Positions 6,215-9,853 of a stretch of 64,000 nucleotides of DNA are shown here, in pieces. The DNA is from Hydrogenophaga intermedia. GTDB taxonomy: Bacteria > Pseudomonadota > Gammaproteobacteria > Burkholderiales > Burkholderiaceae_C. The notes beneath the pieces are model-generated. The model did not search any database. It was given only the letters and a program-made list of their open reading frames with translations, and had not been told where the DNA came from. Position 1 is the first letter of the stretch; every line of letters begins with the position of its first letter. A program made the translations under genes and the position numbers. The stretch lies in the NCBI RefSeq assembly GCF_023715105.1, contig NZ_JAMBNO010000009.1, forward strand, positions 124,001 to 188,000. The letters are read 5' to 3'.

Positions 6215-8269
6215 TCAGCGCACCCGCATGCCCGGCTTCGCGCCGACCGTCGGTTCGAGCACGTAGATGCCCGGCTCGGCTTTCTCGTCGGCGTGGCTCG
6301 CCGCCAGCACCATGCCTTCGCTCACGCCGAACTTCATCTTGCGCGGCGCCAGGTTGGCCACCAGCACCGTGAGCTTGCCCTTGAGCTGTTCGGGCTGGTA
6401 GGCGCTGGCGATGCCGCTGAAGACGTTGCGCGTTTTCCCCTCGCCCACGTCGAGCGTCAGGCGCAGCAGCTTGGTGGAGCCCTCCACGCGCTCGCATTCC
6501 ACGATCTGCGCGATGCGCAGGTCGATCTTCGCGAAGTCGTCGATGGTGATGGTCTCGGCGATGGCCTCGCCACCGGGCAGCGGTGCGGCTTCCACCGGCG
6601 CCGGCGGCGGCTCGAACAGGGCGTCGAGCTGCTTCACGTCCACGCGCTGCATGAGGTGCTGGTAGGGGTTGATGGCGTGGCCCGGGCCGAGCAGGCCGGC
6701 GGCATCGGCCCAGCGCAGCGGCTTGACCTGAAGGAAGGCCTCGACCTGCGTTGCCAGTGCGGGCAGCACCGGCTTGAGGTAGAGCGTGAGCAGGCGGAAG
6801 GCTTCGATGCAGGTGCTGCACACGTCGTGCAGGCGCGCGTCCTGACCTTCCTGCTTCGCGAGCTCCCAAGGCTTGTTCTGGTCCACGTAGGCGTTCACCT
6901 GGTCGGCCAGCGCCATGATCTCGCGCAACGCCTTGCCGTACTCGCGGCTGTCGAACAGGGCAGCCACCCCATCGGCGCGTGCCTGCAACGCCTGCAGCAG
7001 CGTGGCGCCGTCGGCCGATGCCGTGCCCAGTCGGCCGCCAAAGCGCTTGGCAATGAAGCCGGCGGCTCGGCTGGCGATGTTGATGAACTTGCCCACGAGG
7101 TCGCTGTTGACCCGCAGCATGAAATCCTCGCGGTTGAAGTCGATGTCTTCGTTGCGCGGCGAGAGCTTGGCGGCCAGGTAGTAGCGCAGCCACTCCGGGT
7201 TCATGCCCAGGCTGAGGTACTTCAGCGGGTCCAGCCCGGTGCCGCGGCTCTTGCTCATCTTCTCGCCGTTGTTGACGGTGAGAAAGCCGTGCACGAACAC
7301 GGCGTTGGGTGTCTTGCGGCCACTGAAGTGCAGCATGGCCGGCCAGAACAGCGTGTGGAAGGTGATGATGTCCTTGCCGATGAAGTGGATCTGCTCGGTG
7401 TGCGGGTCGGCCATGAAGGCGTCGTAGTCGATGCCTTGCTTGCCCAGCCAGTTCTTGAGCGAGGCCAGGTAGCCCACCGGCGCGTCCAGCCACACGTAGA
7501 AGTACTTGCCCGGTGCGTCGGGGATCTCAATGCCGAAGTAGGGCGCGTCGCGCGAGATGTCCCAGTCGCCGAGCTTGGTGTTGCCGTGTTCGTCGGGCGC
7601 GATCCACTCGCTGATCTTGTTGAGCACCTCGGGCTGCACCGCGCCACTGTGGGTCCAGTCCTTCAGGAAATCCAGGCAGCGCGGATCGGAGAGCTTGAAG
7701 AAGAAGTGCTCGGAGTTTTTCAGCACCGGCTTGGCGCCCGAGAGCGCCGAGTAGGGGTTGATCAGGTCGGTGGGGCTGTAGACCTTGCCGCAAACCTCGC
7801 AGTTGTCGCCGTACTGGTCCTTGGCGTGGCAGTTGGGGCACTCGCCCTTGATGAAGCGGTCGGGCAGGAACATGTTCTTCTCAGGGTCGAAGAACTGTTC
7901 GATGGTGCGGGTCTCGATCAGGCCGTTGGCCTTGAGGTCTTTGTAGATCTGCTGCGCGAGCTCGTGGTTCTCGGGCGCGTCGGTGCTGTGCCAGTTGTCA
8001 AAGCCGATGTGAAAGCCGTCAAGGTAGGGCTTGCGGCCGGCGGCGATGTCGGCCACGAACTGCTGCGGCGTCTTGCCCGCCTTGTCGGCCGCGATCATGA
8101 TCGGCGCGCCGTGGGCGTCGTCGGCACAGACGAAGTGCACCTCGTGCCCCTGCATGCGCTGGAACCGCACCCAGATGTCGGCCTGGATGTATTCCATGAT
8201 GTGGCCGATGTGGAAGTGGCCGTTGGCGTAGGGCAGGGCGGTGGTGACGAACAGGCGGCGCGGGCTCAT
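6215..8269 (-). CDS. metG: Methionyl-tRNA synthetase
   Basis: This 684-residue class I synthetase charges tRNA-Met. It shows the HIGH-type motif [12 protein letters not shown] near residue 15 and a zinc-binding knuckle with CPNCH and CEVCG around residues 145-165. GEKMSKSRG is the KMSKS loop near residue 335. A C-terminal Trbp111/EMAP-type tRNA-binding domain starts at [22 protein letters not shown]. The start [10 protein letters not shown] is chosen because it is the conserved family N-terminus; an in-frame ATG at 8428 would begin inside the hairpin repeat. The Shine-Dalgarno is weak (AGAAGAAAG). Confidence 0.97.
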
Positions 8270-8342
8270 GGCGGGGCTTTCTTCTGGGGAATCGGGGATT
8301 TTAGGGACTCGGCGGTTTGCTCTGGCGTTCTCCGGCCGCGCC

Positions 8343-8452
8343 GGGCCTTGGCGACCGGGGTGTCCGATTCCGCTCATGTCCCCCGGATCGGGCTTGTAGC
8401 CCGATCCTCCTCCTTTACTTCGCTCCATCGGACACCCCGATCACCAAGGCCC
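8343..8452 (+). repeat. Composite palindromic element, copy 1
   Basis: The element has outer inverted arms at 8343-8368 and 8427-8452 (26 bp each, 2 mismatches). The inner stem is 10 bp and perfect (GGATCGGGCT at 8385-8394 and AGCCCGATCC at 8398-8407) with a 3-base loop. Between arms and stem lie two single-stranded segments, TGTCCCCC on the left and TCCTCCTTTA on the right. The same segments recur in copy 2, while the paired stem sequences differ. It looks like a dispersed, structured repeat; whether it acts as RNA or DNA is unknown. Confidence 0.75.
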
Positions 8453-8504
8453 TCGTGGACGCTCGTTGCTGGCGTGCCCGGCTGCCGCTTCAGCGCGCGG
8501 GTGT

Positions 8505-8580
8505 GGGGTGCTTCACGCAGCGGCATAAAGGAGGAGGACCGCGCAGCGGTCCGGGGGACAGCCGCGGAGTGAAGTACCCC
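8505..8580 (-). repeat. Composite palindromic element, copy 2 (inverted)
   Basis: This is a second copy of the element, in the opposite orientation. The outer arms are GGGGTGCTTCAC (8505-8516) and GTGAAGTACCCC (8569-8580), with one mismatch. The inner stem is GGACCGC (8536-8542) and GCGGTCC (8546-8552) around a GCA loop. The linker segments AAAGGAGGA and GGGGGACA match copy 1 read on the other strand. Both the outer and inner stems have different bases from copy 1 yet still pair. Confidence 0.75.
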
Positions 8581-8761
8581 GCGACCGCGAGCAGGCGAGG
8601 TCTTCGAGTGAAATACGGCGCGGGCCAGCCAACAAGTCCGTACTCCCCCTGTGTGAATCACGTCCCGGGAGCCCGGACGGTAGACTTGCCGCCGCCGCAG
8701 AGCAACGCCCGGCCCCCGCTGGCCGCGCGCAGACCCCACTTTCCCCTGGAGCCATTTCCCC

Positions 8762-9853
8762 ATGTCCGTCGATCAACAGGCGCTGATGCAGGCGCTGCAA
8801 GCCGTGCAGGACCCGAACACCGGGCGCGATTTCGTCACCACCAAGGCGCTCAGGAACCTGCAGGTGCACGACGGCGACGTGTCGTTCGACGTCGAGCTCG
8901 GCTACCCCGCCAAGAGCCAGATGCCCGCGCTGCGCAAGGCGCTGATCGCGGCCGCCCGCTCCGTGCCGGGCGTGGAAAACGTGTCGGTGAACCTCGCCAC
9001 CAAGGTCATCCCGCACGCCGTGCAGCGCGGCGTGCAACTCATGCCCAACGTCAAGAACATCATCGCCGTGGCCTCGGGCAAGGGCGGCGTGGGCAAAAGC
9101 ACCACCGCCGTCAACCTGGCCCTGGCCCTGGCCGCCGAGGGCGCCAAGGTGGGCGTGCTCGACGCCGACATCTATGGCCCGAGCCAGCCCATGATGCTCG
9201 GCATCGAAGGCAGGCCCGAGAGCGCCGACGGCCAGACCATGGAGCCGCTGGAAAACTACGGCATCCAGTGCATCTCGATCGGTTTCCTGATCGACCGCGA
9301 CGAGGCCATGATCTGGCGCGGCCCGATGGCCACGCAGGCGCTGGAGCAGCTGCTGCGCCAGACCAACTGGAAGGATCTCGACTACCTCATCGTCGACATG
9401 CCTCCCGGCACCGGCGACATCCAGCTCACGCTGTCGCAGCGCGTGCCGCTCACCGGTGCGGTGATCGTCACCACGCCGCAGGACATTGCATTGCTCGACG
9501 CGCGCAAGGGCATCAAGATGTTCGAGAAGGTGGGCGTGCCCATTCTGGGCATCGTGGAAAACATGGCCGTGCACGTGTGTGAGAAATGCGGTCACGTCGA
9601 GCACATCTTCGGCGCCGATGGCGGCAAGAACATGGCCGCCGAGTACGGCATGGACTACCTGGGCGCACTGCCGCTGAACATGAGCATCCGCGTGCAGGCC
9701 GACAGCGGCATGCCCACCGTGGTGGCCGACCCCGACGGCGAGATCGCTGGCCTGTACAAGGGCGTGGCGCGTCAGGTGGCGATCAAGATCGCGGCCAAGG
9801 CCAAGGACTTCTCGTCCAAGTTCCCGAGCATCAAGATCTCGAAAGAGACCTGA
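8762..9853 (+). CDS. apbC: Mrp/NBP35-type iron-sulfur carrier ATPase
   Basis: This 363-residue cytoplasmic protein binds and transfers Fe-S clusters. The N-terminal MIP18/DUF59-like domain spans about residues 1-85. A deviant Walker A P-loop, SGKGGVGKST, sits at residues 105-114, followed by DADIYGPSQPMM and the DMPPGTGD motif. A CEKCGH pair near residue 272 provides the bridging cluster site. Length matches the family (about 360). A weak TGGAG ribosome-binding sequence precedes the ATG. Many Fe-S proteins in this window (NadA, IspH, BoxA, formate dehydrogenase) are potential clients, by inference. Confidence 0.95.
   Translation: MSVDQQALMQALQAVQDPNTGRDFVTTKALRNLQVHDGDVSFDVELGYPAKSQMPALRKALIAAARSVPGVENVSVNLATKVIPHAVQRGVQLMPNVKNIIAVASGKGGVGKSTTAVNLALALAAEGAKVGVLDADIYGPSQPMMLGIEGRPESADGQTMEPLENYGIQCISIGFLIDRDEAMIWRGPMATQALEQLLRQTNWKDLDYLIVDMPPGTGDIQLTLSQRVPLTGAVIVTTPQDIALLDARKGIKMFEKVGVPILGIVENMAVHVCEKCGHVEHIFGADGGKNMAAEYGMDYLGALPLNMSIRVQADSGMPTVVADPDGEIAGLYKGVARQVAIKIAAKAKDFSSKFPSIKISKET

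Follow-up and report, generated by a model that had tools for sequence, protein, structure and literature searches.

The window considered here, a stretch of 64 kb, is part of contig C150 of a 4.65 Mb draft Hydrogenophaga genome (G000). Two of its genes, which from their sequence we take to be metG on the left and mrp (apbC) on the right, are separated by a gap that holds two imperfect hairpins of opposite orientation (Table 1). Both were present where the initial annotation had placed two copies of a structured repeat, and the unpaired segments it had described as common to the copies, TAAAGGAGGAGGA and GGGGGACA, recur in both. Its second copy is rightly located but drawn too short, as the hairpin extends over about 8496–8597 by fold, and the arms of that copy are mostly self-complementary, apart from one A–C mismatch on the quoted strand that is a G–U pair on the plus strand. 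The two copies are inverted as described; rather than separate copies, they form the two halves of a single unit, about 288 bp long.

Table 1. Positions of the unit, its hairpins and the adjoining genes in the window.
Feature	Position	Strand	Basis and remarks
Whole unit, putatively mobile, about 288 bp	8326..8613	none	hairpin 1, spacer, hairpin 2 and short conserved outer ends
Hairpin 1, type A	8343..8452	-	fold z -10.6; model core 8356-8439, 85.6 bits
Hairpin 2, type B	8496..8597	+	fold z -5.4; model core 8504-8581, 96.2 bits
Conserved purine strand TAAAGGAGGAGGA, hairpin 1	8405..8417	-	5' side of internal loop; last letters run into inner stem
Conserved GGGGGACA, hairpin 1	8377..8384	-	3' side of internal loop; sequence and fold
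Conserved purine strand TAAAGGAGGAGGA, hairpin 2	8526..8538	+	sequence match and fold
Conserved GGGGGACA, hairpin 2	8553..8560	+	sequence and fold
Left neighbour gene (presumably metG), outside the unit	6215..8269	-	ORF; start common to relatives
Right neighbour gene (presumably mrp/apbC), outside the unit	8762..9853	+	ORF; match in 36/36 genus genomes

The edges of the unit were set, with a precision of a few bases, by comparison with copies in the relative G028 (Hydrogenophaga intermedia S1), and its outer ends match the points at which homology stops among 20 pairs of that genome (…GGAGAAA at one end and approximately …GAGCGAAA at the other). None of 200 shuffles was as stable as hairpin 1 (folded over its full extent) or hairpin 2 (folded over 8480–8602). 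With up to two mismatches allowed, TAAAGGAGGAGGA occurs at just the two places of Table 1 in the 64 kb, and two matches arose in 1 of 100 shuffles. An Rfam scan of the window gave only a tRNA; the best weak match at the element reached 23 bits against a cut-off of 168.

Occurrence, pairing and insertion sites

With the purine core as a search pattern, 14 places were found in the window's own genome and none with a reversed control pattern. A covariance model (R1) built from these 14 matches gave 20 hits in the same genome; across the genus, 33 of 36 Hydrogenophaga genomes have between 2 and 55 hits each. Outside the genus it gave hits in one of 24 relatives from other families and in at least 13 of 300 genomes of the order, where 15 candidates were scored in each genome. 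Scanning named genomes with the pattern returned at least 120 stretches. R1 fits 119 of the 120 listed (79 of the first 80, the exception being L100, and all 40 others). Host genera among the matches listed are Variovorax, Hydrogenophaga, Rhodoferax, Ramlibacter, Rubrivivax, Polaromonas, Aquabacterium, Methylibium, Caldimonas, Xylophilus, Pseudorhodoferax and Sulfurisoma. Gammaproteobacteria are represented there by Pseudoxanthomonas (L131, L175) and a Stagnimonas MAG (L141), which suggests transfer between classes or, for the MAG, a contaminated bin. Three Variovorax plasmid records contain partial matches with no feature annotated beneath them.

The hairpins share one plan: an outer stem, a 3×3 loop GNA/GGA, a middle stem, then the internal loop AUAAAGGAGGA / GGGGGACA; the inner stem ends in a triloop, for the most part GCA. 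The outer stem reaches about 20–26 bp and the middle stem up to five steps. Judged by free energy, 13 of the 14 own-genome copies adopt this plan; the remaining one, c61, keeps the outer stem and not the inner one. Hairpin length is about 100–110 nt, and full-length model cores measure 64–107 nt with a G+C content of 0.59–0.81.

Pairing of the hairpins is highly regular. The tally of 13 Hydrogenophaga genomes (9 + 4) comprises 278 model hits, among which 93 pairs lie less than 300 nt apart, and all 93 face outward. The cores of 91 of these pairs are spaced by 53–80 nt and those of the other two by 109 and 223 nt, while 92 of the 278 hits fall outside close pairs, being single or farther apart, some of them at contig ends. 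Similar figures were obtained for the first 80 pattern-matched loci with 40 neighbouring pairs: 38 are outward with 40–81 nt between them, one is outward with 673 nt, and one is inward with a weak partner (40.8 bits). In other families, too, the coordinates show hairpins arranged outward, with spacings that reach about 180 nt. The unit in the window is one case of a family.

At the locus of the window the element is present here and missing in relatives. Mrp was found in all 36 genomes of the genus; of the 30 loci fetched, only the window's own carries the hairpins, and metG adjoins mrp in 28 of the 29 others, so that 28 relatives lack the unit in this gap. The block is missing from all 14 relatives whose gap was aligned. 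In the nearest relative, whose Mrp is 97% identical, the gap measures 178 nt compared to 492 nt here. About 26 nt of this difference fall outside the unit, which was therefore not the only change here. A target-site duplication is not evident at this one site, where the ends are known to a few bases. Within G028, from which 20 pairs were fetched, identity between copies at separate loci reaches 97%, with a median of 82% in 133 comparisons; near-identical copies differ by compensated changes.

Gene context was assigned with a home-made gene caller for those 50 of the 80 pattern-matched loci that had enough flank. Co-directional genes surround 31 sites, convergent genes 15 and divergent genes 1; three sites could not be resolved, and none lies inside a gene. 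The single divergent case among the 47 classified sites compares with about 43 of 120 other gaps in the same loci (gaps of at least 100 nt, minus the 47 counted; Fisher p about 1e-6). Two of ten own-genome sites, that of the window included, are divergent, and own-genome sites occur in co-directional, convergent and divergent contexts alike. A constant role as leader or 3'-end RNA was rejected on account of these mixed contexts.

Constraint on the fold

Covariation was followed in three alignments by counts that take no account of kinship. Alignment A2 contains the 14 own-genome copies, aligned with MAFFT and not fitted to the model, whereas A3 (112 distinct hairpins from named genomes) and A4 (109 distinct hairpins from other loci) were fitted to R1 and lean towards its structure. 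In A2, 94.8% of cells pair and both sides have changed at 17 of 25 pairs; slid controls pair at 33–43%, and none of 500 shuffles reached the observed percentage. The outer 13-bp helix of A2 is paired in 100% of cells with both sides changed at 10 of 13 pairs. The corresponding values are 95.9% with changes on both sides at 25 of 25 pairs in A3, and 95.7% with 24 of 25 pairs in A4. That the stems change while they keep pairing, first noticed in two copies, therefore holds far beyond them. The covariance-model search of relatives, set beforehand as a test, yielded further copies with compensated stem changes, and these many covarying intergenic copies support the proposed selection on a fold.

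The stems also reveal which strand is held to pair. Outer-stem cells of A3 contain 158 G·U against 4 A·C combinations in 1438 cells, and those of A4 contain 91 against 5 in 1408. A G·U pair becomes A·C when the opposite strand is read; as G·U is tolerated and A·C is not, only the AAAGGAGGAGG strand is held to pair. This favours RNA or one strand of single-stranded DNA over a cruciform, an option of the initial annotation that is accordingly disfavoured.

Two further sites depart from Watson–Crick pairing. A two-step block of the middle stem reads GA/TC in 71, GG/CC in 9, AA/TT in 1 and GA/GA in 30 of the 112 hairpins of A3, with one gap and no half-changed form seen. In A4 (n=109) the same block reads GA/TC in 42, GG/CC in 22, AA/TT in 1 and GA/GA in 39 hairpins; three more forms were each seen once, and there were two gaps. 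A GA/GA block corresponds to the tandem sheared G·A arrangement, which is familiar in RNA as well as DNA.

The second site lies in the purine loop, where the middle bases of GGxGG and the opposite GGyGG were compared in the 260 of 274 distinct hairpins that could be parsed (14 could not). The combinations were A/G in 232, G/A in 16, C/G in 4, A/A in 3 and A/C in 1; rows TG (3) and GG (1) look like parsing slips, and L093, listed as GG, reads G/A. The loci of A3 were chosen by loop letters, which makes its loop conservation partly circular. Fairer are A4, even if the model that retrieved it was itself built from such copies, and the 78 hairpins outside the seed pattern, in which A/G occurred 52, G/A 16, C/G 4 and A/A 3 times, plus three rows of one hairpin each. 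For the A and G rows, Fisher p is about 1e-11 with kinship ignored. As these bases covary, they probably face each other as a pair. The G/A form (loci L093, L150, L348 and L364 among others) was found in Hydrogenophaga, Variovorax, Polaromonas, Aquabacterium, Sulfurisoma (L318 in G282) and one further family, and this spread over several genera suggests that it arose several times. A single unit can carry a different form in each of its hairpins, as in L348 and L364; the exchange thus happens within a hairpin and is not tied to the partner.

Two other readings of the loop were set aside. Ribosome binding by AAAGGAGG is not the driver, as copies with AAAGGGGG or AAAGGCGG lose the match and keep the loop pair. 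A simple G-quadruplex seems less fitting than a base pair, since the two opposing bases change together among A/G, G/A and C/G.

Compensated stems alone could result from template-switch correction of imperfect palindromes during replication, with pairing kept without selection and the repeat inert. Template switching is able to create and maintain hairpin stems, according to excerpts of PMC8794818, and the compensated differences between near-identical G028 copies would be in agreement with it. Correction yields Watson–Crick complements, however, and neither an A–G to G–A exchange nor tandem G–A blocks, and it does not give 158 G–U against 4 A–C. For the loops this explanation is already hard to hold, and we regard it as very unlikely overall. 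It is the covarying A·G and tandem G·A sites that argue for a selected fold.

A structured RNA, whose transcribed hairpins would serve to stabilise 3' ends, to terminate transcription or to bind proteins and would have been spread by duplication or a mobile carrier, would account for the one-strand G–U bias, for tandem G–A and A–G pairs as in RNA internal loops and for the sites mostly downstream of genes. The Beta-proteobacterial repeat element (BRE), a possible relative, partly overlaps a transcribed small RNA in Bordetella (excerpts of PMC3110155). The outward pairs, on the other hand, place one hairpin on each strand, so that no single transcript carries both in the folding sense. Own-genome sites lie between genes of all three relative orientations, 11 single hairpins between co-directional genes are oriented in the gene sense in 7 cases and not in 4, and no Rfam match was obtained. 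Taken together, an RNA function appears unlikely.

Proposed mobility and relation to known repeats

We assign a probability of about 70% to a non-autonomous mobile unit of about 290 bp, REPIN- or MITE-like, whose hairpins would be recognised in trans as single strands. The unit consists of two imperfect hairpins of about 100–110 nt that point outward from a short spacer, each followed by a short conserved outer end. By analogy with REP and IS200-type ends, the AAAGGAGGAGG strand of each end would fold whenever the DNA becomes single-stranded, and a putative enzyme acting in trans would recognise the internal loops by shape and move the unit. Insertions would persist mostly downstream of genes. 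Several observations count against this reading: no mobiliser was found, with no hairpin in any of the 59 Y1 loci described below, and three genomes have hairpins and no Y1 hits; no target duplication is evident and about 26 nt of extra length lie outside the unit at metG–mrp; 92 of 278 hits lie outside close pairs, some of them at contig ends; and the window's site, with one more of ten own sites, is divergent.

An IS200-like Y1 gene was found in 31 of the 36 genus genomes, nearly always in one copy, and in 25 of 28 further genome entries (G282 and G340 are one genome, and G351 is G028). The own genome has a single Y1 gene of 228 aa on C150 (L008, 1462–2148). One copy in most genus genomes searched would suit a domesticated transposase. 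Such a protein is the obvious candidate for a mobiliser, by comparison with REPs, and a true REPIN moved in trans by this single-copy, unlinked, RAYT-like protein was considered. Excerpts of PMC3733652 describe some RAYT-like genes as bounded by long, partly self-complementary repeats that share GGGGWSAS, a motif that type-B GGGGACAG fits by eye. No hairpin was found beside Y1 in 30 and 29 fetched loci (59, of which 57 are distinct, with up to 1.5 kb on each side), and a RAYT linkage was therefore rejected for these loci. Hairpins occur without a Y1 hit in G205, G221 and the Xylophilus genome as well as in five genus genomes (G002, G006, G020, G021, G031; all but G002 less than 90% complete), and Y1 occurs without hairpins in G004, G009 and G016. 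Linkage and co-occurrence neither demonstrate nor refute the connection, and movement by this protein seems to us rather improbable.

Among the options raised for the two copies, a REP-like element fits best, as the unit is dispersed and extragenic, its hairpins face outward in pairs, and a site that it occupies in one relative is empty in others. The available parts of PMC3733652 and PMC2817692, the latter of which describes RAYTs, present REPs as extragenic palindromes in many copies that form inverted dimers with a short spacer and compensated stems, mostly between co-directional or convergent genes. The element resembles REPs and REPINs in dispersal (20 own copies), extragenic position (none of 50 examined sites inside a called gene) and inverted, closely spaced dimers (all 93 close pairs point outward). 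It differs in size, with a three-stem hairpin of 100–110 nt (cores 64–107 nt) compared to 20–40 bp for a REP, in the lack of a Y1 gene beside its copies in the 59 fetched loci, and in the letters at the tag position, where GCAG is far more common than GTAG. Of the 112 hairpins of A3, 97 have GCA and 4 have GTA before the G of the middle stem; for the 109 of A4 the respective counts are 78 and 14.

TIRtrons and TIRYTs, as far as portrayed in excerpts of PMC3733652, share long, partly self-complementary ends, moderate copy number and dimers with the element. Read by eye, the short and degenerate GGGGWSAS fits type B and is not matched by type-A GGGGACAT. Unlike in those systems, no Y1 gene lies between or beside the element ends in the fetched loci, and the long-gap pairs that were read hold other genes. 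MITEs are similar with respect to a non-coding unit of 70–300 bp, inverted ends, recent-looking copies and empty sites in relatives; they differ in that the ends of the element are long three-stem hairpins, that no parent insertion sequence was found in the long-gap pairs read and that no target duplication is evident at the one site.

BREs (Hot et al. 2011) are given in excerpts of PMC3110155 as 75–91 bp long with an average G+C of 69%, mostly intergenic, and present in Bordetella and Comamonadaceae including Polaromonas and Rhodoferax. Compared by description only, the element is similar in size and G+C (cores 64–107 nt, 0.59–0.81), intergenic position, hosts among Betaproteobacteria including Comamonadaceae and signs of mobility, with Polaromonas and Rhodoferax among its matches listed. 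In contrast, the same excerpts describe BREs as tandem arrays with few bases between them and mention no fold, whereas the element forms inverted pairs with mostly 53–80 nt between cores. Bordetella, Acidovorax and Delftia do not appear among the matches listed (at least 120). That the element is the BRE or a branch of it is quite conceivable, somewhat short of an even chance; this would concern the name and is compatible with a mobile unit. The titles and abstract openings surveyed, a collection in which subscription journals are thinly covered, include no description of this fold, and the motif letters led, among the titles listed, to unrelated ones. In summary of these comparisons, the element works like a REPIN, is by tag, size and gene linkage not a REP, and may be a BRE or a BRE relative.

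More tentatively, the element could represent a class of its own, distinct from REPs and not driven by RAYTs, whose mobile paired hairpins border exchangeable single-gene cargo at the proC–ubiA locus discussed below. Its ends would be read by shape by a putative new enzyme through a purine-rich 3D motif, composed of the central A–G / G–A / C–G pair and the switchable tandem G–A block. We consider this possible, though doubtful.

For nucleic-acid recognition the family represents a natural experiment: hundreds of copies change their letters, and on a single strand they retain their pairing, the covarying A·G site and the two-state middle stem. Because letters change with the fold retained, reading by shape can be tested against reading by sequence. 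A covariance model now exists for these repeats of Hydrogenophaga, Variovorax and their relatives, which reached no Rfam cut-off in the present scan, and R1 offers a direct test of whether the little-understood BRE is the same repeat.

Hairpins at the proC–ubiA locus

At a locus whose genes we presume to be proC and ubiA, the hairpins of eight Hydrogenophaga genomes enclose differing contents (L072, 1671–4371 on C95 of the own genome; L224; L286–L290; L381), and it looks like a hot spot with exchangeable cargo. In G011 the enclosed stretch is 53 nt, and in G014 it is short and of unclear content. One gene is enclosed in each of G017, G027, G025, G021 and G033. The cargo of G017 is trypsin-like (below the curated cut-off), that of G027 a DUF2625 gene and that of G025 a weak beta-propeller match, while the genes of G021 and G033 gave no Pfam match. 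These single-gene cargoes have a third-position G+C of 0.54–0.62 compared to about 0.9 in host genes.

The pair in the window's genome encloses a DDE transposase along with a CcdB-like gene. An autonomous parent inside this long-gap pair was considered and rejected, since other genomes hold other genes there, and between the long-gap pairs that were read no related autonomous insertion sequence was found. The cargo edges resemble each other, on the right with at most two mismatches in the window's genome, G025 and G014, on the left with at most three in G025 and G021. For G033 and G027 the model finds one hairpin and misses the second. Apart from this locus, a single long outward pair was noted, L120, which encloses what we take to be an ordinary host gene.
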